Positions 13,448 through 33,493 of a DNA stretch of 35,719 bases are shown here, piece after piece. The stretch's first letter is position 1; every line of letters begins with the position of its first letter. The position numbers and the translations under genes are program-made. The notes under the pieces were generated by a model that saw only the letters and a list, made by a program, of their open reading frames with translations, was not told where the DNA came from and did not search any database. The stretch covers positions 1 through 35,719 of the forward strand of contig JAGNQL010000012.1 of NCBI GenBank assembly GCA_017989135.1. The letters are read 5' to 3'. This DNA is from Burkholderiales bacterium. GTDB lineage: Bacteria; Pseudomonadota; Gammaproteobacteria; Burkholderiales; Casimicrobiaceae.

Positions 13448-16288
13448 TCAGTCAGCCATCGCCGCGCGCACCGATGCGGCGAGCGCCTGTCCGCCGCCGT
13501 AGCTCGATTGCGCAGCGAGTTCGCCACCCAATGTGACGCGAATTGCGCAGTACTTGAATTCGGGGATTTTGGCGAAGGGATCGAGCGCCGCGTTGGTGAG
13601 ACGATTGATCGCGGCTTCGTAGTAGCAGAACGGCACGAAAACCGCGCCGCGTGGCGAGCTGTCGTCAGCGCGAGCGTAGAGCACCACTTCACCGCGACGC
13701 GAGGCGATGGTGATCACGTCGCCCGGCTTGCCGCCCATGTCGGCGAGATCGAGCGGATGAATCAGCGCGATGGGATCGGGCTCGATGGCGTCGAGCATTG
13801 TCGCGCGGCGCGTCATGCTGCCCGTGTGCCAATGCTCCAACTGGCGACCCGTGATGAGCACCATCGGGTACTCAGCGTCCGGACGTTCGTTGGCCGGAAT
13901 GATGTCGGCGGGTACAAACATCGCGCGACCGCCTTCGCGTGGGAAGTGGTCTGTGAACACCACGCTCTCTCCGGGGTCGCCTTCTTTCATGCACGGATAC
14001 GTCACCGCGTGTTCGCACTCAAGACGATCCCACGTGATGCCACCGATGCTCGGCATGGTGTGGCGCATTTCGTCGAACACCTCGGCGACGTGACCGTAGT
14101 TCCAATCGAGTCCCATGCGTTTGGCGATCTGCTGAATGATCCACAAATCTTGTTTGGCTTGCCCCGGCGGATCAATCGCTTTGCGGCCCATTTGCACGAG
14201 GCGATCGGTGTTGGTAAAGCTGCCGTCTTTCTCCGGGAACGCGCTAGCGGGGAGGATGACGTCGGCAAGATACGCCGTCTCCGTGAGGAAAATATCTTGG
14301 ACTACGAGGTGATCCAACGCCGCGAGTGATTCGCGAGCGTGGTTCGCGTCGGGGTCGGACATGGCGGGGTTTTCGCCCATCACGTAGAGCCCGCGCACTT
14401 CGCCTTTTTTGATCGCGTGCATCACTTCAACCACGGTAAGGCCCGGCTTGTCGTCGAGCGAGCCAGCGGGCACCTTCCATGCAGTTTCAAAGCGCGAGCG
14501 AACAGCTGGGTCAATCACGCGCTGATAGTCCGGATACATCATCGGAATCAAGCCCGCGTCGGACGCGCCTTGCACGTTGTTCTGGCCACGCAGTGGATGC
14601 AGCCCGGTGCCGGGGCGACCGATTTGTCCGGTCATCAGAGCGAGCGCGATCAAGCAACGCGCGTTGTCGGTGCCATGAACGTGTTGCGACACGCCCATGC
14701 CCCAGAGAATCATCGAAGCCTTCGACGATGCGTAGAGGCGCGCCACGTAGCGCAAGGTATCGGCGTCGATTCCGCAGATCGGCGCCATCGCTTCGGGACT
14801 GTAGCCCTCGACGTTTTTTCGCAATTCGTCGTAACCAATCGTGCGGCTCGCGATGAAGTCGGCGTCGACCAAATTCTCGGTAACGATGACGTTCATCATG
14901 GCGTTGAGCATTGCGACGTCCGTGTCGGGCTTGAACTGCAAGTGGCGATGCGCCACACGCACCAAGTCCGAACGGCGCGGATCCGCGATGATGAGTTTGG
15001 TGCCGTTGTTGACGGCGTTTTTGATCCAGCTCGCCGCGACGGGGTGGTTCACGCTTGGGTTCGCGCCGATGACGATCACAACCTCGGCTTTGGTCACGTC
15101 CATCACTGGATTCGACACTGCGCCGGAACCGATGCCTTCGAGCAGTGCGACAACGGACGAGGCGTGGCACAAGCGCGTGCAATGATCCACATTATTGCTG
15201 CCAAAGCCCGTTCGGACTAGCTTCTGGAAGAGGTAGGCCTCTTCGTTGCTCCCCTTTGCCGAGCCAAATCCAGCGAGCGATTTCTTGCCGTGTTGGTCGC
15301 GAATTCGCGCGAGTTTGCCACCAGCGAGTTCGAGCGCTTCTTCCCACGTTGCTTCGCGGAACACGTCCAAAACGCGATCCGGGTCCATCACAAAATCGCC
15401 GCGTTTCGGTGCGTCTGCCCGACGAATGAGTGGCACGGTGAGGCGATGTGGATGATGCGCGTAGTCAAAACCGTAACGGCCTTTGACGCACAAACGCTCG
15501 CGGTTGGCCGGGCCATCGCGGCCGTTCACGAACAAAATTTTGTTGTCTTTCACGTTGTACGTGAGCTGGCACCCGACACCGCAGAACGGGCAAACCGATT
15601 CGACTTGTTTGTCGGGCACGGTCAACGCTGCATCGCGCGCGGGCATGAGCGCGCCCGTCGGACAAGCCTGTACGCACTCACCGCAAGCGACGCAGGTGGA
15701 CGCGCCCATCGCGTCGTCCATGTCAAACACAATCTTTGCGTGCGCGCCGCGGAATGCGAGGCCGATGACATCGTTAACCTGCTCGTCGCGACACGCGCGC
15801 AAGCAACGTGTGCACTGAATGCAAGCGTCAAGATTGACTGAAATTGCGGGATGGGAATGGTCGCTATTGACCTGCTCCCGCGCTGCAAAGCGTGGCTTGC
15901 CGACGCCGAGCTTCTGTGCCCATTGATCGACTTCGTTGTTTCGTGTGTAGCTCGTCTCGGGCATGTCGGCTTGCAACAATTCGAGCACGAGCTTCTGCGA
16001 CTTCACTGCGCGCTCACTGTCGGTGGTCACTTTCATGCCGTTGGCTGGCGTGCGGCAGCAGGACGGCGCGAGCACACGCTCGCCGGCGATCTCAACGACG
16101 CAGGCGCGGCAGTTGCCCGCCGTATCAAGGCCTTCTTTGTAGCAAAGGTGGGGCACCTCGATGCCGTGATCTTTCGCGACTTCAATGAGTGTTTGGTCGG
16201 AGCGGGCGGAGACCGCTTTACCGTTGAGCTCAAAGGTGACGACGGGTGCGTCAAGAGAGGCCATTTCGCTGCGGGTGATTGCGTTCAT
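13448..16288 (-). CDS. fdsA: NAD-dependent formate dehydrogenase, catalytic alpha subunit
   Basis: This oxidises formate to CO2 at a molybdenum (or tungsten) bis-pterin centre in the cytoplasm and passes electrons to the NAD-reducing subunit encoded upstream. Domain order over 946 residues is: an N-terminal [2Fe-2S] ferredoxin domain (C49, C60, C63, C77), two [4Fe-4S] motifs (C156-C166 and C199-C209), a further [4Fe-4S] motif (C233, C236, C240, C267), then the molybdopterin oxidoreductase core and binding domain. The metal ligand is a cysteine in TRLCH (C374, H375), so this is a Cys-type, not a selenocysteine, enzyme. The ATG follows AGGA at 8 nt. It is the last gene of the oxalate operon. 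fdhD/fdsC maturation genes are absent from the window. Confidence 0.95.
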   Translation of the reverse strand: MNAITRSEMASLDAPVVTFELNGKAVSARSDQTLIEVAKDHGIEVPHLCYKEGLDTAGNCRACVVEIAGERVLAPSCCRTPANGMKVTTDSERAVKSQKLVLELLQADMPETSYTRNNEVDQWAQKLGVGKPRFAAREQVNSDHSHPAISVNLDACIQCTRCLRACRDEQVNDVIGLAFRGAHAKIVFDMDDAMGASTCVACGECVQACPTGALMPARDAALTVPDKQVESVCPFCGVGCQLTYNVKDNKILFVNGRDGPANRERLCVKGRYGFDYAHHPHRLTVPLIRRADAPKRGDFVMDPDRVLDVFREATWEEALELAGGKLARIRDQHGKKSLAGFGSAKGSNEEAYLFQKLVRTGFGSNNVDHCTRLCHASSVVALLEGIGSGAVSNPVMDVTKAEVVIVIGANPSVNHPVAASWIKNAVNNGTKLIIADPRRSDLVRVAHRHLQFKPDTDVAMLNAMMNVIVTENLVDADFIASRTIGYDELRKNVEGYSPEAMAPICGIDADTLRYVARLYASSKASMILWGMGVSQHVHGTDNARCLIALALMTGQIGRPGTGLHPLRGQNNVQGASDAGLIPMMYPDYQRVIDPAVRSRFETAWKVPAGSLDDKPGLTVVEVMHAIKKGEVRGLYVMGENPAMSDPDANHARESLAALDHLVVQDIFLTETAYLADVILPASAFPEKDGSFTNTDRLVQMGRKAIDPPGQAKQDLWIIQQIAKRMGLDWNYGHVAEVFDEMRHTMPSIGGITWDRLECEHAVTYPCMKEGDPGESVVFTDHFPREGGRAMFVPADIIPANERPDAEYPMVLITGRQLEHWHTGSMTRRATMLDAIEPDPIALIHPLDLADMGGKPGDVITIASRRGEVVLYARADDSSPRGAVFVPFCYYEAAINRLTNAALDPFAKIPEFKYCAIRVTLGGELAAQSSYGGGQALAASVRAAMAD

Positions 16289-16307: not shown

Positions 16308-18005
16308 CTATGCCAACTCGTGCGGGAAATACTTCACCACACAATCAATCGGATTGGGAGCGGCCTGACCGAGACCGCAAATCGACGCGTCGCGCATCAC
16401 GGTCGAAAGGTCCGCGAGCAGTTCGAGGTCCCACTTCGGTTTCGCGATCAGCTGTGCCGCTTTGGCCGTGCCGTTGCGGCAAGGCGTGCACTGTCCGCAG
16501 GATTCGTGCTCGAAAAAACGCATAGTGTTGCGCGCCGCTGCGACGGCGGTGTCTTTGTCGGAAAGCACGACGACCGCCGCCGAGCCGATGAAACAACCGT
16601 GGGGTTGCAAAGTGTCGAAGTCCAGCGGAATGTTGTTCATGTGCGCGGGCAAAATGCCGCCGGACGCTCCACCTGGCAGATAGCCGTAGAACGTGTGGCC
16701 AGGCAGCATGCCGCCGCAATGGTCGTCGATCAACGCTTGGATCGTGATGCCTGCTGGCGCGAGTTTTACGCCAGGGCTCTGCACGCGTCCCGATACCGAA
16801 AACGAGCGCAAGCCCTTGCGACCGTTCGCGCCGAACGACGCAAACCACGCGCCGCCTTTTTCGAGCAGTTCGCGCACCCAATAAAGCGTTTCAAAATTGT
16901 GTTCGAGCGTGGGGCGACCAAACAAGCCCACTTGCGCCACGTAAGGCGGGCGCAGGCGCGGCATGCCGCGCTTCCCTTCAATCGATTCGATCATCGCGGA
17001 TTCTTCGCCGCAGATGTATGCGCCTGCTCCACGCCGCAAATGGATCGTTGGCATATTGGTGATCGGTGGATTCGCTCGAAGCTTCGCAAGCTCGGCTTCC
17101 AGCATCGTGCGACAGCCGTGGTATTCGTCGCGCAGGTAAACGTAGATCGTCTCGATGCCAACGGCCCACGCCGCGATCAACATACCTTCAAGAAAACGGT
17201 GTGGATCGCGCTCCAACATCACGCGATCTTTGAATGTGCCCGGCTCGCCCTCGTCGATATTCACGGCCATCAATCGCGGCCCCGCTTCGGCGCGCACGAT
17301 GCGCCATTTGCGACCCGCAGGGAAGCCTGCGCCGCCCAAGCCACGCAGGCCCGAATCTTCGAGCGTTTTGATGACGGACTCGACGTCGCGGTTGCCGGAT
17401 ACGCACTCGTTGATTAACGAGTAGCCGCCCGCCGCGCGATACGCGGTAAGGTCGATGAAACCCGTGGGTTCGTGTCTCACGGTGCCAGCCTTCACGGCGG
17501 CGGTCACGGTATCCACCGTTGCATTTGCAATCGGCTGTTGCCCAACCGCCACCGCGGGTGCTTGTTCGCAACGACCGATGCACGGCGCGGCGATCACGCG
17601 CACTTCGCGGCCCAGCAAAGCGGGTAAGCGCGCCAACAAATCGCGCGCGCCCGCCATTTCGCATGACAAGCCATCACACACGCGAACGGTGAGCGCAGCG
17701 GGCGCGGCTTCACCCTCTTTCACCACATCAAAGTGATGGTAGAACGTCGCGACTTCGTAGACTTCTGTTTGCGCGAGGCGCATCTCTTGTGCGAGCGCAG
17801 CGAGGTGGCCCGCCGACAAACACCCGAAATGATCTTGAATCTTGTGCAGATGTTCGATTAGCAAGTCGCGTTGGCGTGACTGACTGCCAAGCAGCGCCTG
17901 AACTTCGGCAAGCTCTGCGGCGCTGGCACGACGACCTTTTGGGCCTTGGCGCTTGCGCTCTTTAGTGCTGGCCTGCACGGCAATCGGGATCACGGGGTGG
18001 TTCAT
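16308..18005 (-). CDS. fdsB: NAD-dependent formate dehydrogenase beta subunit, FdsG-FdsB fusion
   Basis: This diaphorase subunit carries electrons from FdsA to NAD+. It is a 565-residue fusion. Residues ~28-170 are a NuoE/FdsG-like domain with a [2Fe-2S] site (C110, C115, C142, C146). Residues ~185-565 are a NuoF/FdsB-like domain with the FMN/NADH-binding GLRGLGGAGFPAGRKW near 220 and a [4Fe-4S] motif (C503, C506, C509, C543). Many betaproteobacteria encode these as two genes; the fused form is known from Methylorubrum FDH1. The start is an ATG behind TTGGAG; a TTG one codon earlier was rejected. It sits 19 bp ahead of fdsA. Confidence 0.94.
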   Translation of the reverse strand: MNHPVIPIAVQASTKERKRQGPKGRRASAAELAEVQALLGSQSRQRDLLIEHLHKIQDHFGCLSAGHLAALAQEMRLAQTEVYEVATFYHHFDVVKEGEAAPAALTVRVCDGLSCEMAGARDLLARLPALLGREVRVIAAPCIGRCEQAPAVAVGQQPIANATVDTVTAAVKAGTVRHEPTGFIDLTAYRAAGGYSLINECVSGNRDVESVIKTLEDSGLRGLGGAGFPAGRKWRIVRAEAGPRLMAVNIDEGEPGTFKDRVMLERDPHRFLEGMLIAAWAVGIETIYVYLRDEYHGCRTMLEAELAKLRANPPITNMPTIHLRRGAGAYICGEESAMIESIEGKRGMPRLRPPYVAQVGLFGRPTLEHNFETLYWVRELLEKGGAWFASFGANGRKGLRSFSVSGRVQSPGVKLAPAGITIQALIDDHCGGMLPGHTFYGYLPGGASGGILPAHMNNIPLDFDTLQPHGCFIGSAAVVVLSDKDTAVAAARNTMRFFEHESCGQCTPCRNGTAKAAQLIAKPKWDLELLADLSTVMRDASICGLGQAAPNPIDCVVKYFPHELA

Positions 18006-18039
18006 CAAAACTCCAAAATTCTTTGCGCGATTCGTGTAG

Positions 18040-19287
18040 CTAAATCACGCGTGCTTCGCGAAGCGCATCGATTTGCGCCTGCGTGTAGCCCAACTGTGTG
18101 AGCACTTCTTCGGTGTGTTCGCCCAAGAGCGGCGAGCGGGTAACGACGGTGGGGCTGTCCGACATCTTGATCGGATTGCCGACGGTCAAATATTTGCCGC
18201 GAACCGGGTGATCGACTTCAACGATAGTGCCGGTTTCGCGCAGCGACGGCTCTTCGGCGATTTCTTTCATCGACAAAATCGGGCCGCACGGAATGTCGTA
18301 TTGATTGAGAATTTCCATGACCTCGAATTTGTCTTTGGTCATCGTCCACTGCTCAATGCGTCGAAAGATGGGCTTTAGGTGCAACAGGCGCGCCGCGGGC
18401 GTTGCAAAGGCTTCGTCGTCGATCCATCCAGGTTCGCCGATGACCTTGCACACGGCGGGCCACACAGCCGCTTGCGTGATGAAGTAGATGTAGGCGTTGG
18501 GGTCCGTTTCCCAGCCTTTGCACTTGAGGATAGAGCCCGGTTGCCCGCCCCCCGAGGCATTGCCCGCGCGCGGCACGGCGTCGCCGAATTTGCCGTCGGG
18601 ATATTGCGGATATTCGTGCATGGTGCCAGTGCGCTCTAGGCGCTGCTGGTCGCGTAGCTTCACCCGACAGAGATTGAGCACTGCGTCTTGCATCGGCGCG
18701 AGCACACGCTGGCCACGATCTGTTTTGTGGCGCTGTAAAAGCGCTGCAAGAATGCCCAACGCGAGGTGCAATCCCGTGCCGCTGTCGCCGATCTGCGCGC
18801 CGGTCACGAGTGGCGGGCCGTCATCGAAACCCGTGGTCGAGGCGGCACCGCCCGCGCACTGCGCGACGTTTTCGTAGACCTTGCAATGCTCGTATTTTCC
18901 GGGGCCAAAACCTTTGACCGAAGCGACGACCATGCGCGGGTTCAACTCGTTAATACGCTCCCACGTAAAACCCATACGATCCAGCGCGCCGGGCGCGAAG
19001 TTTTCGACGAGCACGTCACATTGCTTAATCAAATTCTCCAACACCTCTTTGCCCGCTGGCTTTTTGGTGTCGATCGTGATCGAACGCTTGTTGTGGTTGA
19101 GCATCGTGAAGTAGAGGCTGTCGGCCCCCGGGATGTCCCGGAGTTGGCCGCGCGTCGCGTCGCCTTCGCCCGCTCGTTCCACTTTGATCACGTCGGCACC
19201 AAACCACGCGAGCAACTGCGTGCACGTGGGGCCTGACTGCACGTGTGTGAAATCGAGAATTCGGTAGCCTGCTAGAGCCTGGCTCAT
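18040..19287 (-). CDS. Formyl-CoA:oxalate CoA-transferase paralog (CaiB/BaiF family)
   Basis: This is a 415-residue class III CoA-transferase, clearly homologous along its length to the frc gene at 19867-21138. The nucleophilic aspartate is D168 in QIGDSGTG, and Q17 (HVQSGP) and the …[10 protein letters not shown] region are retained. The active-site glycine loop reads NASGGGQP instead of NAGGGGQP, so one flexible glycine is replaced by serine. It could be a second formyl-CoA transferase or an acetyl-CoA/succinyl-CoA:oxalate transferase that primes the cycle, as YfdE does beside Frc in E. coli. It lies 34 bp ahead of fdsB, so it is in the same transcript. Confidence 0.88.
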
Positions 19288-19866: not shown

Positions 19867-21138
19867 TTAAACAGCCTTGGCAGCGTGGATCGCGGCGATC
19901 TCGTCCTTGCTGTAACCCAGTTCCGCCAACACCTCGTCGGTGTGCTCGCCCAACAGTGGCGACGCTGTGACTTCGGGCTTGGTGTCGGAGAACTTGATCG
20001 GGCTACCGACGGTCCAGTAGCTGCCGCGTACTTTGTGTGGCACTTCAACGATCGAGCCGCTGGCGCGCAGTGATTTGTCGTGCAACAGTTCTTTCATCGA
20101 AAGCACGGGCGCGCAGGGAATGTCGAACTTGCGGAAGATGTCGACGGCTTCGAACTTGGTCTTGTCAGCAATGAACGCTTCGATCGTGCCGAAGATGTCC
20201 ATGATGTGCGGCTGACGGCCTTGTGGTGTGTTGTAGGCCGGGTCGTCCTTCCACTCTGGCTTACCCAGCGCGTCACAGATGGGGCCCCATGCGTGGCCTT
20301 GAATCGTGAAGTAAATGTAGGCGTTGGGATCTGTCTGCCAGCCTTTGCACTTCAGAATCCAACCGGGTTGGCCGCCACCACCTGCGTTCGCGCCGCGCGG
20401 CACCACGCCGTCTTTGAACGCGTCCATTTCATGCGGGTACTGTGGATACTCTTCGAGATAACCGACTTTATCCAAACGCAGTTGATCGCGCATCTTCACG
20501 CGGCACAGGTTCAACACGGAGTCTTGCATGGACACGGCGACCTTTTGGCCTTTACCGGTTTTTTGACGACCGATGTAGGCCGTCAAAATGCCGATGGCGA
20601 GGTGCATACCGGTGTTGCTGTCGCCCAACGCAGCCGACGAAATCGTTGGGCCGGCGTTTTCGCCTTTCCAGTAGCCGGTTGTGGATGCAGCACCACCCGC
20701 GCACTGAGCAACGTTCTCGTAAACCTTCAGGTCTTCGTAGTGGTGGCCATCGCTGAAACCTTTGACCGACGCCAGAATCATGGCGGGGTTGAGGCTTTGG
20801 ATGTATTCCCACGTGAAGCCCATGCGATCTAGCGCGCCAGGACCGAAGTTTTCAACCATCACGTCGGATTCTTTAATCATCTTCTCAAGCACGGCCTTGC
20901 CTTCTGGCTTTTTCGTGTCGAGTGTGAGCGAGCGCTTGTTGCTGTTGAGCATCGTGAAATACAGGGCGTCAGCGCCGGGTACGTCACGCAGTTGTGAACG
21001 GGTCACGTCGCCGGAGCCCGGACGTTCAACCTTGATCACATCCGCGCCGAACCAAGCGAGCATCTGTGTGCATGCCGGGCCCGCTTGTACGTGCGTGAAG
21101 TCGATGATCTTGATACCTGCGAGAGGTTTGTTGCTCAT
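19867..21138 (-). CDS. frc: Formyl-CoA:oxalate CoA-transferase
   Basis: This moves CoA from formyl-CoA to oxalate, releasing formate and making oxalyl-CoA for the decarboxylase encoded upstream. The 423-residue length and motifs fit Frc of Oxalobacter and E. coli: [23 protein letters not shown] near the N-terminus with Q18, catalytic aspartate D173 in ALGDSNTG, and the intact glycine loop NAGGGGQP (residues 251-258) that covers the active site. The start is the ATG of MSNKPLAG behind AGGAGA; longer frames upstream overlap oxc and were rejected. It sits 25 bp from oxc, so the two are co-transcribed. Confidence 0.94.
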
Positions 21139-21163: not shown

Positions 21164-22891
21164 TTATTTTTTCTTGGCGGCGGATGGGTTGAGGCTAGTG
21201 ATGCGACCGCTCTCAGTGCCTGCCGTTTCATCAATGATCGCATTGATGAGCGTTGGCTTGCCCGATTTGACGGCTTCGACCATTGCCGCGCGCAGTTCTG
21301 CGGGCGTTGCGGCCTGAACACCGACGCCACCGAAGGCTTGCATCATCATGTCGTAACGCGCGCCCTTGACGAATACCGTTGGAGCGACGTCTTTGCCGCC
21401 GGATTGGTTTACGTCGGTGCCGCGATAGACGCCGTTATTGTTCATTACGACCACGCATACGGGCAGGTTGTAGCGACAGATCGTCTCCACTTCCATGCCG
21501 CTAAAGCCAAACGCGCTATCGCCTTCAACGGCGAATACTTGCTTGCCGGTAACGACGGCAGCGGCGACCGAGAAGCCCATGCCGATGCCCATGATGCCCC
21601 ATGTGCCCACGTCGAGGCGCTTACGCGGAAGGTACATGTCCACGATTGAGCGCGTGAAGTCGAGCGCGTTCGCGCCTTCGTTAACGAGGATCGCCTCTGG
21701 GTTGTCCTTAATCATGTCGCGCACCACGGCCAGCGCGCTGTGGAAGTTCATTGGCGACGGGTCTTTGGCCAAAGTTTCGGCCATCTTCGCTACGTTTTTC
21801 GTGCGGCGCTCAGAGATCGCACCGGTCCATTCGAGTGGGGGTTTCGCCCAATCGGAGCCGATGCCCGCGAGCAGAGCGGAAACGCAGGAGCCGATGTCGC
21901 CCACCAATGGCGCGTCGGTAGCGACGTTGCTGTCAGCTTCTTGCGGCGAAATGTCGATCTGGATGTACTTTTGACCGCCCCACGCTTTGTGGTCTTTGCC
22001 GCCCCACGTTTTGCCTTTGCCGTGCGAGAGGAGCCAGTTGAGGCGCGCGCCGATCAGCACGACAACGTCGGCTTCGGGCAATACATAAGAGCGCGCTGCG
22101 GCAGCCGATTGCTCATGCGTATCGGGCAGGATGCCTTTGGCCATCGACATCGGCAAATACGGGATGCCGGTCTTCTCAATCAATGCACGGATATCGGCGT
22201 CGGCCTGCGCATACGCTGCGCCCTTACCTAGCAGAATCAATGGTTTCTTCGCGCCCTTGAGCAGATCAAGCGCACGCTTCACCGCGTCTGGCGCAGGAAT
22301 TTGGCGTGGCGCTGCATCGACGACTTTGATCAATGAGGCTTTACCAGCAGCCGCGTCCATCGTCTGCGCGAAAAGTTTCGCTGGCAGGTCGAGGTACACC
22401 CCGCCAGGACGGCCTGACAGTGCGGCACGAATGGCGCGGGCAACACCCACGCCAATGTCTTCGGCGTTGAGTACACGGAAGGCCGCTTTGCACAGCGGCT
22501 TGGCGATGGCCAGTTGGTCCATCTCTTCGTAGTCGCCCTGCTGCAAATCGACAATTTCGCGCTCGCTGGAGCCGCTGATCAAAATCATCGGGAAGCAGTT
22601 CACCGTCGCGTTCGACAGCGCTGTCAAACCGTTCAAGAATCCGGGCGCAGAAACCGTGAGGCAAATGCCAGGCTTCTGCGTCAAGAAGCCGGCGGCGGCA
22701 GCAGCATTGCCGGCATGCTGTTCATGACGGAACGAAATGACGCGCATGCCCTCGCCTTGCGCCATCCGCGTGAGGTCCGTAATCGGAATGCCCGGCAAGC
22801 CAAAAATCGTGTCGATGCCGTTTAATTTGAGAGCGTCAATGACCAGGTGAAACCCGTCGGTCGTTTCTGCTGATGAAGCCTCTGTCGTCAT
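21164..22891 (-). CDS. oxc: Oxalyl-CoA decarboxylase
   Basis: This thiamine-diphosphate enzyme converts oxalyl-CoA to formyl-CoA and CO2 in the cytoplasm. It has 575 residues with the three-domain layout of the family. The cofactor-activating glutamate is E57 ([12 protein letters not shown]), and the ThDP/Mg motif begins GDSAFGFSG at residue 457 and ends in NNN at 484-486. The central domain carries the family's nucleotide-binding loop. The ATG is preceded by GGAGAG. It is the first gene of the operon, with an FNR-like operator 134-149 bp upstream of the start and the divergent regulator gene beyond it. Confidence 0.95.
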
Positions 22892-22996: not shown

Positions 22997-23002
22997 ATTA
23001 TC
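22997..23002 (-). promoter_or_regulatory. Candidate -10 element of the oxc promoter
   Basis: GATAAT on the minus strand begins exactly 30 bases after the centre of the FNR-like operator, the spacing expected for an activator bound near -42. No good -35 hexamer is present, as is usual for activator-dependent class II promoters. The tctC promoter has a -10-like hexamer at the identical distance. Confidence 0.5.
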
Positions 23003-23024: not shown

Positions 23025-23040
23025 GTTGACCCCGGTCAAC
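23025..23040. promoter_or_regulatory. FNR-like operator between oxc and its regulator
   Basis: GTTGACCCCGGTCAAC is a perfect inverted repeat of 7-bp arms. Read as TTGAC-N4-GTCAA it is an FNR-type box (TTGAT-N4-ATCAA). The adjacent ACTTTCGCAAAATATCGC is repeated with one change beside the matching box upstream of tctC. It lies roughly midway between the divergent starts of oxc and the CRP/FNR gene, so it may control both. Confidence 0.65.
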
Positions 23041-23160
23041 TTTCGCAAAATATCGCTTTTGTTGCTCCTTTCCCGAAGTAGGCATGCCCCTGAAAATTGC
23101 ACTGACGTATGTAAGGCCATTCGCACTGTGCGCAGGCTTCATCACCGCTGAGAGATTGCG

Positions 23161-23769
23161 ATGATTCCGATGCTGCAACACCCCGAGCGGGCAATCATCA
23201 GCGCGCAGCTTCGTCAGAACGAGGTGCTCAAGGGTATGCCTGACGAAATTCGCGAAGAGCTTGAGCGAACGCTTACGATCGTCGACGGCGCGAAATCTGA
23301 TTTCTTGTTGAGCCAAGGCGTTCGTGAGATGGAGCAATACTTCATTCTCGACGGCGTATTGAAGCGCACCGTCTCGAACGCCGAAGGCAAAGAAATGATT
23401 TTGCGTTTCGCTGCGGAGGGCGATATGGAGACGAGCTACGCCGCGTGGCGCATGGGCACGCCGACGCCGTACAGCATCGTTTGCGTGACCAAGGCTAGGG
23501 TGGCGCGTCTGCCGTTGCCGCAGTGGGTTGATTTCCTCGAGCGGCATCGCGAAACGAAAGATTTGTTCGAGAGCGCCGTGATGCGCCTGATGACGGAGGT
23601 CATGGGCCACACCATCACTTTGCATCTTCTGGACGCGCCGGGACGCGTGCATCGCTTCCTACGCAAACGACCGGATCTCGTGGATCGCATTCCGCAAAAA
23701 CAACTCGCAGCGCACCTAAACTTATCGGCAGAAACGCTGAGCCGCTTGCGTCAACGCGGGAAGATCTAA
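23161..23769 (+). CDS. CRP/FNR-family transcriptional regulator of the oxalate genes
   Basis: This is a 202-residue DNA-binding protein: a cyclic-nucleotide-binding-like beta-roll (residues ~25-120), a dimerisation helix (~120-145) and a C-terminal helix-turn-helix ending IPQKQLAAHLNLSAETLSRLRQRGKI. The recognition helix has E191, S194 and R195 (ETLSR), the FNR arrangement that reads TTGA half-sites, which are present upstream of oxc and tctC. The N-terminal cysteine cluster of FNR is missing, so it does not sense oxygen through a [4Fe-4S] cluster; the effector is unknown (oxalyl-CoA, formyl-CoA or oxalate are guesses). It is divergent from oxc, the usual position of a local activator. Confidence 0.88.
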   Translation: MIPMLQHPERAIISAQLRQNEVLKGMPDEIREELERTLTIVDGAKSDFLLSQGVREMEQYFILDGVLKRTVSNAEGKEMILRFAAEGDMETSYAAWRMGTPTPYSIVCVTKARVARLPLPQWVDFLERHRETKDLFESAVMRLMTEVMGHTITLHLLDAPGRVHRFLRKRPDLVDRIPQKQLAAHLNLSAETLSRLRQRGKI

Positions 23770-23778
23770 GGGCACTAC

Positions 23779-23894
23779 AGCTTTTTCCTTCCAGCGACTG
23801 CTGGGCGGTCGTTTCAGTTACTTTTTCTACTAAGTCGATAGTTAATAAAAAGTGGCTGAGAGCGCCGCTGGTCTGTCGTTTCATGGAAAAAGCT
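23779..23894 (+). mobile_element. 116-bp palindromic MITE/REP-like element, copy B
   Basis: The ends are perfect inverted repeats AGCTTTTTCC / GGAAAAAGCT. The inner arm AGCGACTG-N5-CGGTCGTT occupies the same offset as in copy A. Hand alignment to copy A matches about 73 of 116 positions without gaps. It begins 9 bp after the regulator's stop codon and precedes the tct terminator. Confidence 0.7.
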
Positions 23895-23906
23895 GCTTAA
23901 AAAGAA

Positions 23907-23939
23907 AAACGGCGCGCTACCCAGGGCAGCGCGCCGTTT
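23907..23939 (-). terminator. Intrinsic terminator of the tctCBA operon
   Basis: A 12-bp perfect stem AAACGGCGCGCT / AGCGCGCCGTTT with a 9-nt loop is followed on the minus strand by TTCTTTTT. It ends transcription 29 bp past the stop codon that tctA would use if its frameshift were repaired (23969). On the plus strand it could also serve the regulator gene, although the T-tract there is weak. Confidence 0.8.
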
Positions 23940-23968
23940 CGCGAGTTCCGTCTTGCGACGGAAATGAA

Positions 23969-25470
23969 CTACGCCGCGCTAGTGCCTTTGAGCTTAGCCA
24001 TGACCGCTGTCACCGCAGGCCACACCAACATGATGAGCGCCAAGGTAGTGATTGAACCCACGAGCGGATTCGAGAAGACACTCCCATGCTGCCGCTCGAC
24101 GACAGCAGCGATTGACGGAATGCGTTCTCAGCCATGTCACCCAGCACCAACGCCAACACCAATGGCGCCATCGGATACTGCAGCTTCTTGAACACGTAAC
24201 CGATCACGCCAAAGCCCATCATCAACCACACGTCGAACATGGAGCTGTGCACGGTGTACGCACCGACCGCGCAAATCACCAAAATGACCGGCGCGATGAT
24301 CGAGAACGGAATGCGCAAGATTGCAGCGAACCAAGGTACGGTCGCAAGCACCACAATCAGGCCAACGATGTTGCCCAGATACATACTGGCAATCAGGCCC
24401 CACACGAAGTCTTTTTGCTCAACGAAAAGCAGCGGACCGGGCTGCAAACCCCAGACCAGCAGACCGCCAAGCAACACGGCCGCCGTAGGCGAGCCGGGAA
24501 TGCCGAGCGTGAGCATCGGCAGCAATGCCGACGTGCCCGCGGCGTGCGCAGCGGTTTCAGGCGCGAGCACACCTTCGACTTCGCCTTTGCCGAAATTCTT
24601 GGCGTTCGGCGAGAAGCGTTTGGCGATGCCATAGCCCATGAACGACGCGGGTGTTGCACCGCCTGGCGTGATGCCCATCCAGCAGCCGATAAACGAGCTG
24701 CGGAAATACGACTTCCAGTACTTCGGCAGTGTTTTCCACGTTTCCCAAACTACAGCGGGAGTGATCTTGGCAGACTTTCCGCGGAACGCGAGACCTTCTT
24801 CCATCGTGAGCAAAATCTCGCCGATGCCGAACAAACCGATCACCGCGATCAGGAAGTCAAATCCCTTTATCAACGGCTCCAAGCCAAAGGTCAGGCGCAG
24901 TTGGCCCGTTACGTTGTCCATGCCGATGGTTGCGAGTGCGAACCCCATGAACATCGCGGCAATTGTTTTCCATGCCGGCTCTTTGCTCATGCCCACGAAG
25001 CTGCAGAAGGTCAGCAATTGCACCGCGAAAAATTCTGGCGGACCAAACTGCAACGCGAACTTCGCTACCAACGGGGCAAGGAACGTGATGACGACGATAG
25101 CGACCAGAGCGCCGAAAAACGACGAGCTAAACGCCGCAGTCAAGGCTTGCGCTGCTTGCCCATTTTGCGCCATCGGATAGCCGTCAAACGTTGTCGCGAC
25201 AGACCACGGCTCGCCCGGAATGTTGAACAAGATCGAAGTGATCGCGCCACCGAACAACGCGCCCCAGTAAATGCACGAGAGCATGATGATGGCGGAGGTT
25301 GGGTTCATGCTAAACGTCAGTGGCAACAGAATCGCCACACCGTTGGCGCCGCCCAATCCGGGCAACACGCCGATGATGACGCCGAGCAAAATACCGATAA
25401 ACATGAGGGCAACGTTGGTCGGAGACAGGGCAACCGAAAAGCCCTGCATCAGTGCTTGAATTTCTTCCAT
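23969..25470 (-). pseudogene. tctA: Tripartite tricarboxylate transporter large permease TctA, frameshifted near the C-terminus
   Basis: This is the large membrane subunit, about 12 membrane segments, that imports a carboxylate captured by the TctC binding protein, driven by an ion gradient. Family motifs are intact: GVLPGLGGANGVAILLP, WGALFGGAITSILFNIPGEP, GITPGGATPASFMGYGIAKRF and LALVLGDMAENAFRQSL. After …SGSMGV the reading frame diverges into an unlike tail ending at 24010. Removing 2 nt at a GTGT (minus strand, around 24077-24081) restores FSNPLVGSITTLALIMLVWP…MAKLKGTSAA and a stop at 23969, giving about 499 residues, the normal family length. Either a 2-nt duplication or a sequencing error. 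The unrepaired product would lose the last membrane helix. ATG behind GAGGT; 7 nt from tctB. Confidence 0.85.
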
Positions 25471-25477
25471 ATCGACC

Positions 25478-25972
25478 TCAAAAACCTAGCAATGATTCAA
25501 TTGGGCCCTTGATGAGCGGCACCTTGAACCAGAGTTCAAACATTGCGAAAAGCACCACCACCGTGCCCACGCCAACCGCCGCGCAAATCGGGTAACTGAA
25601 CTTTCCTTGCCAACGCATGAAGACGGCAATCAAAATCGCGCCTGACACGTACAGACCGAGCCATTGCATCGCAAAAACGAAGGCCAGCGCGGGAAAGAAC
25701 ATCGCCCCGACCAAGCGCAACGCCTGCGAAGAAACAAAGGACTTCTCGCGGGACATTCGCCACCCTTTGATCAAATTGACGACGGACGCAATCGCCATCA
25801 TCAGCCCGATGTAGAACGGGAAGTAGCCGCTCTCCGGACCGCTCGCCCCCCAGCCCGCGCCAATGCGTCGACTGTCCCACATGATCAAAACAGCCAGCGC
25901 AAGCAGCACCAAGGCGACAATGATTTCAAGTGTCCGGGTGGACACGGCGCTAGTTTCCTCAGGCTCTGACAT
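25478..25972 (-). CDS. tctB: Tripartite tricarboxylate transporter small permease TctB
   Basis: This is the small membrane subunit of the tripartite transporter, 164 residues with four hydrophobic segments (LEIIVALVLLALAVLIMW, YFPFYIGLMMAIASVVNLI, the ALAFVFAMQWLGLYVSG region and VGVGTVVVLFAMFELWF). The GASGPESGYFPFYIG motif is typical of TctB. I took the ATG behind a strong GGAGG (MSEPEETS…) and not the longer upstream frame. It lies between tctC and tctA and is closely coupled to tctA. Confidence 0.9.
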   Translation of the reverse strand: MSEPEETSAVSTRTLEIIVALVLLALAVLIMWDSRRIGAGWGASGPESGYFPFYIGLMMAIASVVNLIKGWRMSREKSFVSSQALRLVGAMFFPALAFVFAMQWLGLYVSGAILIAVFMRWQGKFSYPICAAVGVGTVVVLFAMFELWFKVPLIKGPIESLLGF

Positions 25973-26041
25973 GCGGCCTCCTTCTCGATGAAATGAAATG
26001 CTGAGACTCGCGCGTTGTACCCACGCGTAGCCCAAAAACGA

Positions 26042-26074
26042 AACGGGCGCTGACTGTCTAAAGTCGCGCCCGTT
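26042..26074 (-). terminator. Intercistronic hairpin between tctC and tctB
   Basis: A 9-bp stem AACGGGCGC / GCGCCCGTT, extended by inner ACT/AGT pairing, is followed on the minus strand by TCGTTTTT. It sits 9 bp after the tctC stop. It would cap most transcripts after tctC and let only part continue into tctBA, giving an excess of the binding protein over the membrane subunits. Confidence 0.6.
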
Positions 26075-26083
26075 GTTGCGTCA

Positions 26084-27094
26084 CTACTTGGCTGGGACGA
26101 AGCCCGCTTCTTGCATCAGCTCGCGGTGATGCTGGTCCTCTTTGGCGACCCAAGCCGCGTACTCAGCGCCCGCCATGAAGGTGGTGTTGAACGCGCCTTC
26201 TTCCATGAATTTCGCCCAATCAGGCGTAGCGCGAACTTTCTTCATGAGGTCAACGTAAAACGCGACTTGATCTGGTGTGACGCCTGGTGCCATAAAGATT
26301 CCGCGCAACATCAAATACTCAATGTTGAGGCCGCTTTCTTTACAGGTTGGAATCTCACTCCAGCTCTTATCGGCAATCTTCTCTTTTTGCGCGAGACGTT
26401 TTCCGTCAAATACGCAGAGCGGACGCAACTTGCCGCCGCGCCACTGAGCTACGGCCTCAATGGGGTTGTTCACCGTGGACTCGACGTGCTTGCCGACGAG
26501 TTGCACGGCCACTTCGCCACCGCCTTTGTACGGTACGTAAATGAACTTCGCGCCTGTGGCCTTCTCGATCATCGCCGTGACGATCTGGTCTTCCTGCTTG
26601 GAGCCTGTGCCGCCCATGCGCATTTTTCCGCCAGCGGCTTTCACTGCGGCGATGTATTCCTGCGCAGTCTTGTATGGGCTTTCTGCGTTTACCCACAACA
26701 CGAATTCGTCAAGCGCGAGCATCGCGACTGGCGTCATGTCTTTGTACGAAAACGGAACGCCTGTGGCCACCGGTGTGGTGAACAGATTCGACAGGGTGAT
26801 GATGATTTTGTGCGGATCACCCTTGGAGTTCTTCATCTCAAGGAAGCCCTCAGCGCCCGCGCCGCCGCCTTTGTTAACAACCACCATCGAGGACTTCAGC
26901 AGCTTGTGCTTGGTCACGATGCCTTGCACGAGTCGCGCCATTTGATCGGCACCACCGCCGGTGCCAGCGGGAACAACGAACTCAACGTTTTTGGTGGGCT
27001 CCCACGCGTGGGCTGCGCTCGCGCCGAGCATTGCTGCGGCAACGGCGACCACGGAAAGGGCTTTGCTAATTTTCGTTAGACGAAATGAACTCAT
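26084..27094 (-). CDS. tctC: Bug-type periplasmic binding protein TctC
   Basis: This is a periplasmic solute receptor, 336 residues, that captures the substrate for TctBA. The signal peptide is clear (KISKALSVVAVAAAMLGASAAHA, cleavage after AHA at ~30). The mature protein opens with PTKNVEFVVPAGTGGGADQMAR, the Bug-family ligand loop, and carries the …MRMGGTGSKQEDQIVTAMIEKATGAKFIYVPYKGGGE block. The ATG follows AAAGGAGA. Bug proteins bind many carboxylates. The shared operator with oxc suggests oxalate or a close relative here, which sequence alone cannot prove. Confidence 0.92.
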   Translation of the reverse strand: MSSFRLTKISKALSVVAVAAAMLGASAAHAWEPTKNVEFVVPAGTGGGADQMARLVQGIVTKHKLLKSSMVVVNKGGGAGAEGFLEMKNSKGDPHKIIITLSNLFTTPVATGVPFSYKDMTPVAMLALDEFVLWVNAESPYKTAQEYIAAVKAAGGKMRMGGTGSKQEDQIVTAMIEKATGAKFIYVPYKGGGEVAVQLVGKHVESTVNNPIEAVAQWRGGKLRPLCVFDGKRLAQKEKIADKSWSEIPTCKESGLNIEYLMLRGIFMAPGVTPDQVAFYVDLMKKVRATPDWAKFMEEGAFNTTFMAGAEYAAWVAKEDQHHRELMQEAGFVPAK

Positions 27095-27122
27095 GGGTTG
27101 TCTCCTTTTGACTTGTGTAGGG

Positions 27123-27128
27123 ACTGTA
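27123..27128 (-). promoter_or_regulatory. Candidate -10 element of the tctC promoter
   Basis: TACAGT on the minus strand begins exactly 30 bases from the centre of the FNR-like box at 27151-27166, matching the arrangement in the oxc promoter. Four of six bases fit TATAAT. The transcript would start about 20-25 bases before the tctC ATG. Confidence 0.45.
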
Positions 27129-27150
27129 CGAGGGGAACTTTCATTTTGCT

Positions 27151-27166
27151 ATTGATCGCGGTCAAC
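27151..27166. promoter_or_regulatory. FNR-like operator upstream of tctC
   Basis: ATTGATCGCGGTCAAC contains TTGAT-N4-GTCAA, followed by ACTTTCGCAAAACATCGC, which repeats the flank of the oxc operator with one change. The block is in the same orientation relative to the minus-strand gene in both promoters. This marks oxc and tctC as members of one regulon. Confidence 0.65.
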
Positions 27167-27309
27167 TTTCGCAAAACATCGCACGGGATAACCCGATGCG
27201 AAGCACGCGACGATCAGACCGCATCATTCGACTGCGTAACGTGATGAAGCGAGGTGGCGCGGACAGTGCATTCCCTATACGTCCGGCGTGACGTCAAACA
27301 ATTGGAAAT

Positions 27310-28856: not shown

Positions 28857-29058
28857 GACTCCCGCGCATGCCGCAACGGCCGGCACCTTGAACCGGGGTT
28901 CAAGAGTGGATGCCCCACGACGACTACAAGGTACAGCTGGCGACTTCAAGCTTGCGCTGAAAGAAGAGCCGCGCACACGGCCGCGGTAGAAGAGCATCCT
29001 CGCGACAAGCGCATTGGTTCAAAGAAATATTCGACCGCCACGCGCACCGCAGGAGCAA
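28857..29058 (-). ncRNA. ssrS: 6S RNA, regulator of sigma-70 RNA polymerase
   Basis: This ~200-nt RNA mimics an open promoter and sequesters RNA polymerase in stationary phase. On the minus strand the 3' part reads CTTGAACCCCGGTTCAAG followed by …GCGGCATGCGCGGGAG, matching the conserved TTGAACC…GGTTCAAG hairpin and closing stem of E. coli 6S. The 5' end CTCCTGCG pairs with the 3' CGCGGGAG. A -10-like TAGAAT at 29064-29069 precedes the 5' end, and a terminator follows. Placement directly downstream of zapA is the classical ssrS location. Exact ends are estimated. Confidence 0.85.
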
Positions 29059-33224: not shown

Positions 33225-33250
33225 ACGCGTCCCCGAGGGAGGGAACGCGT
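33225..33250 (-). promoter_or_regulatory. Expression-platform hairpin of the B12 riboswitch
   Basis: ACGCGTTCCC / GGGGACGCGT forms a strong stem immediately 3' of the riboswitch aptamer. It is not followed by a T-run, and the btuB start is ~160 nt further on, so the control mode (terminator-like or translational) cannot be decided from the sequence. Confidence 0.4.
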
Positions 33251-33412
33251 GAACCGGGCCGGTCTCCGGACTTCGTCGCGGCAGTGTTGAGCCTTCCCAA
33301 AACTCGCGTTTCAGTGGCTTAGATTCAACCTGCGCTCATGCGACTTACCGTTGCGGGGGCAGTATCGGAATGGCTGAAGTTCTATTCAACGCACCGATTT
33401 CCCGTTTCACTC
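33251..33412 (-). promoter_or_regulatory. Cobalamin (adenosylcobalamin) riboswitch
   Basis: On the minus strand the conserved blocks occur in order: GAAACGGGAA…CGGTG, CTGCCCCCGCAACGG, GCCACTG, TGGGAAGGC, then GACGAAGTCCGGAGACCGGCC. These are the canonical B12-box elements of the cobalamin riboswitch. It precedes btuB-btuF and would repress them when cobalamin binds. The 5' end lies ~80 bp from the divergent exporter gene, so the shared promoter region is compact. Confidence 0.93.
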
Positions 33413-33493
33413 TTCGCCGCGCCCCATCGTGCGGCACAGCGTCGAGCACCTTGTTCGATAACCATTTTACAGGGAGCATGCAACAATTTGCAC

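Follow-up and report, generated by a model that had tools for sequence, protein, structure and literature searches.

Two promoters on a stretch of DNA from a Burkholderiales bacterium of the Casimicrobiaceae (assembly GCA_017989135.1, contig JAGNQL010000012.1, positions 1 to 35,719; all 35,719 nucleotides are referred to here as the window) raise the question of whether uptake and catabolism of oxalate are turned on together by a single regulator. Nearly the same box stands upstream of oxc, the gene for oxalyl-coenzyme A (CoA) decarboxylase, and of tctC, the gene for the periplasmic binding protein of a tripartite tricarboxylate transporter (Tct), and the gene of a Crp/Fnr-family regulator is placed between the oxc cluster and the tctC-tctB-tctA unit (Table 1). 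On sequence evidence, it is probable that both boxes are operators of one dedicated activator, the product of this gene, which would serve oxalate uptake as well as catabolism.

Along the direction of transcription, both promoters consist of an A/T-rich flank, the box TTGACC-N2-G(G/A)TCAA, 23 nucleotides, and a -10-like hexamer. The box is centred at approximately -42.5 in each case (-41.5 if transcription starts 6 nucleotides past the hexamer), and by eye a consensus -35 element is absent from both promoters (CAGGGA and TAGCAA, at 17-nucleotide spacing, match it at two and three of six positions, respectively); thus both have the class II arrangement of a box near -41.5 relative to the -10 hexamer without a consensus -35. 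The exact pattern TTGAYNNNNGTCAAC was found in the window at these two operators only (pattern search, 0 mismatches), the palindrome at 27151-27166 being imperfect. The flanks, which, as seen from the gene under control, lie on the upstream side of the boxes, are identical at 15 of 16 positions, and the next best match among all 16-mers of the window on both strands is 12 of 16. The flank pattern ACTTTCGCAAAAYATCGC with up to three mismatches occurs at two sites in the window, a number reached by none of 100 dinucleotide shuffles (mean 0.08), and the 25-mer comprising box and flank has no third copy with up to three mismatches in the 3.35-Mb assembly (79.7% complete). Chance as the origin of the shared box and flank is rejected by these window and assembly searches, the shuffles, the ranking of 16-mers and the spacing found in relatives. 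A first-pass annotation of this DNA had reported the same boxes, flanks and hexamers, the sequences and coordinates of which proved correct on re-reading of the window; the hexamers that it placed 30 nucleotides from the operator centre both start at offset +30.5, and a search of the incomplete assembly, of the kind that it proposed, yields these two sites alone. Its common flank of 18 nucleotides is a real near-identity, but the first two letters (AC) fall inside the box, and therefore the extra shared block amounts to 16 nucleotides.

Conservation was examined in 90 loci drawn by the regulator (78 relatives of the regulator, 11 strong matches from further relatives, and the window), some of which may represent the same organism (e.g., L004 and L033) and many of which lie on short contigs. 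In 76 of the 90 loci, an oxc gene with 55% identity or more is divergent from the regulator gene; the two are co-directional in L109, 13 loci show no such oxc, and tctC of at least 55% identity is present in 53. Of the 76 loci usable for oxc, 74 have a strict TTGAY-N4-RTCAA box ahead of the gene, with the consensus TTGACC-N2-GGTCAA, and of the 52 usable for tctC, 46 have such a box. When promoters more than 85% identical to others were removed, 46 oxc and 23 tctC promoters remained, all of which possess the hexamer pattern xAxxxT at offset 29 or 30 from the box centre (other offset pairs: means of 3.3 for oxc and 1.0 for tctC, maxima of 25 and 4). A rough sigma-70 matrix placed the best hexamer at 29-30 in 44 of the 46 oxc promoters, compared to 4 in the largest bin of 50 shuffles.

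A less biased set was obtained by searching 150 genomes of the order for Oxc, which gave 29 positive genomes, the window's own among them. The regulator is encoded in 27 of the 28 others, either in the fetched flank of oxc (21 genomes, five with co-directional genes) or elsewhere (6 genomes), and the one oxc genome without it (G152) is likewise without the box. Of the 27 genomes with upstream sequence to examine, 22 have TTGA-N6-TCAA ahead of oxc with no more than two mismatches in the inner C and G letters (none in 9 genomes, one in 7 and two in 6), and among the 16 of these 22 promoters that are not near-copies of earlier ones, 11 have their best -10 hexamer at 29-30. In two genomes (G043 and G091), the regulator gene is on another contig, yet oxc has the perfect box TTGACCAAGGTCAA with GATAAT at offset 30, a hexamer that is outscored by a different one in G043.

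The strongest argument for a regulon is that different genes occur under one box and spacing. In G004, where no tctC was found (matches at E 1e-60), an OxlT-type oxalate/formate antiporter gene (TIGR04259, 385.7 bits, cut-off 335) is located beside the regulator gene with TTGACCGTGGTCAA upstream. A perfect box precedes a family-tested formate-tetrahydrofolate ligase gene in L099, and a box that is perfect in L091 and has two mismatches in L101 precedes an open reading frame with an N-terminus similar to the ligase; in each of these three loci, TATAGT stands at offset 29 or 30. Six loci (L093 and L103-L107) have the box, with one or two mismatches, upstream of a frc-like gene. In G042, a perfect box and TAAGAT at offset 30 lie between the regulator gene and that of a thiamine pyrophosphate (TPP) enzyme below the Oxc cut-offs. 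This TPP enzyme (L144 10103-11869) is acetolactate-synthase-like and occupies the place of oxc, near two frc-like genes and OxlT.

The regulator itself has several features of the Crp/Fnr superfamily. Its N-terminal beta-roll matches PF00027 (34.8 bits, cut-off 27.5; strands of the model between residues 39 and 118), and the structure model is confident (pLDDT 90.3) with a CRP fold, in which helices H130-156, H179-185 and H190-198 form a long predicted dimerisation helix and a C-terminal helix-turn-helix. Foldseek comparison to CRP, GlxR and FNR structures gave a probability of 1.00 (top match GlxR, 3r6s, TM 0.78; A. fischeri FNR, TM 0.80). The sequence ETLSR is present in 88 of the 90 extracted homologues, the exceptions (L065 and L109) being short extractions. 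E191, S194 and R195 are invariant in 26 aligned sequences, giving the FNR-type combination of E..SR with TTGA, which is read directly at the window boxes and was required by the box search itself at the conserved boxes of relatives. A wing was not found: there is no strand after H190-198, and in the 44 of 45 non-redundant homologues that contain ETLSRL, the protein ends 6-15 residues after this string, leaving no room for a normal one. The four iron-sulfur ligand cysteines of FNR are not present in the regulator, which has one cysteine (C108; 0-3 in the 45 non-redundant homologues), nor are the cyclic AMP (cAMP) contacts of CRP (E72, R82 and S83), with which S, T and P are aligned in a comparison with 4i02_A. 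A second copy of the regulator, 37-49% identical to the first, is encoded near it in some loci (L042 8742-9350, L071 10189-10773, L082 8754-9347 and L076 4207-4755). The first-pass annotation had postulated FNR-type class II geometry and one local regulator for uptake and catabolism; the former is supported by the spacing of box and -10 hexamer in relatives, where the comparison of oxc and tctC promoters that it suggested finds both elements mostly kept at both genes, and the latter gains support, at the level of prediction, from the relatives, the regulator sequence and the modelled fold.

The function of the shared flank is a separate matter. Its 15/16 identity is unique to the window, the next best among 45 genomes with both boxes being 10/16, and the identity of oxc and tctC flanks averages 0.46 within the same genome and 0.45 between genomes. 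The mean A/T fraction of the 5 nucleotides beside the box is 0.59 upstream versus 0.21 downstream at oxc and 0.73 versus 0.23 at tctC, with the upstream side A/T-richer in 40 of 46 oxc and 20 of 23 tctC promoters (poorer in 6 and 0, respectively), and a second A/T-rich stretch is found at -20 to -16 (0.62 at oxc, 0.66 at tctC). The A/T-rich upstream patch is perhaps a site for the C-terminal domain of the RNA polymerase alpha subunit (alpha-CTD), to judge from its composition and placement. The first-pass annotation had considered the flank a possible second contact site, a reading that is supported in part: the exact identity is confined to the window, and an A/T-rich upstream patch is more widely kept. 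That the regulator makes a second sequence-specific contact at the flank, or that a second protein binds there, in place of alpha-CTD, is unlikely, with enough in its favour to be taken seriously: 18 of the 46 oxc promoters have GAAAG directly before the box, 11 of the 23 tctC promoters have AAAAG or GAAAG there, and the oxc flanks of some Variovorax are palindromic (TTTCCGGAAA). However, the A/T richness is one-sided, away from the gene, and follows transcription although the dimer is symmetric, an asymmetry more in keeping with an alpha-CTD site than with contact by a symmetric protein; the letters of the flank differ by lineage whereas its A/T content is mostly kept, and since the patch is more widely kept than the flank identity, contact with alpha-CTD is at least as likely as a second contact.

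Several observations weigh against a dedicated activator. The main set of loci was drawn by the regulator and is rich in Variovorax, and therefore its counts are not independent events. The two of 76 loci without a strict oxc box comprise L080, which keeps it with one mismatch, and L109, which has no box; of the six of 52 without a strict tctC box, L081 keeps it with one mismatch and L091, L097, L099, L100 and L101 have none. The -10 hexamers of tctC are weak, with the best-scoring one at 30 in 5 of 23 promoters (largest shuffle bin, 4). Among the oxc-drawn genomes, the box is absent from five of 27 (L156, L166, L167, L168 and L170), and in L156 and L166 this is so although the regulator gene adjoins oxc. 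The window's own assembly contains 14 TTGAYN4RTCAA palindromes (reversed control pattern, 4), and for nine of the 12 outside the window (L111-L119 and L122-L124), reading in one of the two orientations reveals xAxxxT at 29/30 (mean 2.3 over the 92 offset pairs scanned); thus it would be wrong to regard the -10 spacing as special to the two window boxes. Sister genomes G001, G002, G003 and G005 encode a second Crp/Fnr protein, with ETVSR, which may have been lost from the incomplete assembly analysed here. The sequence GAAAGTTGAYCNNNRTCAA, with at most one mismatch, also occurs in six of the 13 genomes of the genus that gave no match to the regulator (five with one mismatch, G002 with none; reversed control, 0).

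Because class II spacing is general to Crp/Fnr-type boxes in this genome, geometry is no proof of the linked regulator, and the assignment of the window boxes to it is based on gene linkage and co-occurrence, together with the way in which the box recurs at different genes of the pathway. The competing assignment is to another FNR/Anr-type regulator that reads the boxes alone or jointly, with the linked Crp/Fnr gene not encoding their main reader. In its favour, besides the palindromes and their spacing, several of the nine spaced boxes outside the window precede genes with Usp, OmpW, PPK2, ODP (ODP-type diiron protein) and HMA domains, among them kinds of gene known as FNR/Anr targets (desaturase, solute-binding and FAD genes are beside L112, L115 and L122, the sites without the hexamer); the second Crp/Fnr protein of the sister genomes has enough sequence for a wing; and about 20% of the genome is missing. 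The nine boxes suggest a separate FNR/Anr-type regulon, the regulator of which would lie outside the assembled part of the genome, and ETxSR was not seen in the other Crp/Fnr proteins read from four PF00027 places of this assembly. That such a regulator is the reader of the oxc and tctC boxes is nevertheless improbable: GAAAG or AAAAG adjoins none of the 12 outside boxes on either side, none of them (by eye) has the form TTGAYC-N2-GGTCAA, the linked regulator accompanies oxc in 27 of 28 genomes and usually adjoins it, and the oxc consensus differs from the FNR site, which is TTGAT-N4-ATCAA.

The view that one promoter was recently copied to the site of the other, leaving matching flanks without function, has little to recommend it. 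None of the other 44 genomes with both boxes has flanks matching at more than 10 of 16 positions, as recent copying would have it; but the segments between box and -10 hexamer are dissimilar (0.17 identity), and the flanks of G003 differ at three of 16 positions while both keep TTTTGnGAAAG (by eye), so that copying of a whole promoter is not favoured as a full explanation. An A/T-rich upstream patch also recurs at other oxc and tctC promoters, and copying leaves the box itself unexplained. Crp/Fnr proteins can repress, but repression by the local protein at these boxes, released by oxalate, is hardly to be expected where the box is centred near -42 and not over the -10 hexamer or the start, where neither promoter has a consensus -35, and where the -10 spacing is constant in every non-redundant promoter counted, as contact with RNA polymerase predicts.

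Under the favoured assignment to a dedicated activator, a dimer of the regulator would bind TTGACC-N2-GGTCAA near -42, beside the place of the missing -35, and would recruit RNA polymerase in class II fashion at the oxc operon and at tctCBA, with the upstream A/T-rich patch most likely seating alpha-CTD. The oxc operon would supply decarboxylation, CoA transfer and probably formate oxidation, tctCBA would probably import oxalate, and the signal perceived by the regulator may be oxalate or one of its CoA derivatives. The boxes, the -10 position, the conservation, the linkage and the predicted fold are the sequence-based parts of this scheme, from which we infer binding, activation, the signal, the alpha-CTD contact, the Tct substrate and co-transcription of the oxc cluster.

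Table 1. Promoter elements and genes around the oxc and tctC operators of the window.
Feature	Position	Strand	Remarks
Operator box TTGACCCCGGTCAA	23026..23039		Upstream of oxc
Shared flank CTTTCGCAAAATATCG	23040..23055		Upstream side of oxc box, in direction of oxc transcription
-10-like hexamer GATAAT of oxc	22997..23002	minus	First base 30.5 nucleotides from box centre
Operator box TTGATCGCGGTCAA	27152..27165		Upstream of tctC
Shared flank CTTTCGCAAAACATCG	27166..27181		Upstream side of tctC box
-10-like hexamer TACAGT of tctC	27123..27128	minus	First base 30.5 nucleotides from box centre
Possible extra dyad GGGATAACCC	27185..27194		Centre 31 nucleotides upstream of tctC box centre
Crp/Fnr-family regulator, 202 amino acids	23161..23769	plus	PF00027 cNMP_binding; recognition helix AETLSRL; divergent from oxc
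oxc, oxalyl-CoA decarboxylase	21164..22891	minus	TIGR03254, 968.3 bits, cut-off 739.4
frc copy 1, formyl-CoA transferase	19867..21138	minus	TIGR03253, 698.7 bits, cut-off 504.2
Stand-alone PAS domain protein, 145 amino acids	19333..19770	minus	Between the two frc genes
frc copy 2, formyl-CoA transferase	18040..19287	minus	TIGR03253, 721.5 bits, cut-off 504.2
NuoE/NuoF-like flavoprotein	16308..18008	minus	Pfam domains; below NuoF cut-off
Formate dehydrogenase alpha subunit	13448..16288	minus	TIGR01591, 767.6 bits, cut-off 666.25
tctC, periplasmic binding protein of Tct	26084..27094	minus	PF03401
tctB, small membrane subunit	25478..25972	minus	PF07331
tctA, large membrane subunit	24010..25470	minus	PF01970

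The whole oxc cluster is assumed to be a single transcript, in which the NuoE/NuoF-like flavoprotein is probably the NADH-linked subunit of the formate dehydrogenase. The PAS domain protein has a match of at least 50% identity in 47 of the 90 loci; among the 51 loci that have frc copy 1 at 70% identity or more, 47 have such a match. The possible dyad near tctC belongs to a GGG-N4-CCC pattern. Of the 45 genomes with both boxes, 36, mostly Variovorax, have it 31-33 nucleotides upstream of the centre of the tctC box, and six have it at a similar place near the oxc box; in G004, GGGTTAACCC stands ahead of the box at the oxlT-like gene as well. The dyad is possibly the site of a second regulator. 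Elsewhere in the window, the near-palindrome TTGAACCGGGGTTCAA (28888-28903) resembles an expanded box; the idea that it is part of a 6S RNA was rejected, as it had no match in Rfam at gathering thresholds. A cobalamin riboswitch is located at 33240-33468 on the minus strand (96.3 bits).

These promoters resemble the E. coli paradigm of class II CRP/FNR promoters in having a dimeric box near -41.5, no consensus -35 and a fixed distance to the -10 hexamer, and differ from it in the TTGACC-N2-GGTCAA box, the linked pathway-specific regulator and the conserved upstream A/T patch. The regulator is similar to FNR/Anr in its recognition helix (ETLSR, compared to ETISR of FNR), TTGA half-site and fold match to A. 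fischeri FNR, but it has one cysteine in place of the iron-sulfur ligands, no wing, and linkage to oxalate genes. Its top fold match is GlxR and its cNMP_binding domain scores above the cut-off, in common with the CRP/GlxR group, from which it is set apart by S, T and P at the cAMP-contact positions and by a TTGA half-site rather than the GTGA of CRP. The gene cluster has Oxc and Frc equivalogs above curated cut-offs, like other oxc-frc oxalate operons; unlike them, it is adjoined by tctCBA and formate dehydrogenase and has a probable dedicated Crp/Fnr regulator.

In kind, this is an ordinary system, a local Crp/Fnr activator with class II promoters, and the main interpretation of the first-pass annotation stands. 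A dedicated transcriptional regulator of the oxc-frc route was not found in searches of open-licence papers, and a passage of PMC6994688 names no regulator. Within the open-licence literature, the assignment of such a system to the use of oxalate, and how widely it is conserved, are apparently new. More broadly, and at slightly less than even confidence, a wingless Crp/Fnr subfamily that uses neither cAMP nor an iron-sulfur cluster could sense oxalate, oxalyl-CoA or formyl-CoA and command a modular oxalate-to-formate regulon of Burkholderiales (import by Tct or OxlT, CoA transfer, decarboxylation, and formate oxidation or assimilation) from promoters of fixed geometry, in which an upstream docking patch for RNA polymerase is kept as part of the operator. 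Oxalate is an abundant acid of plants and fungi. If the assignment is true, the regulator, the operator and the genes for its use would be predicted for many Burkholderiales, a Tct transporter would be tied to probable oxalate uptake, a possible oxalate-responsive promoter would be available, and the ligand of an uncharacterised Crp/Fnr subfamily would be directly testable.

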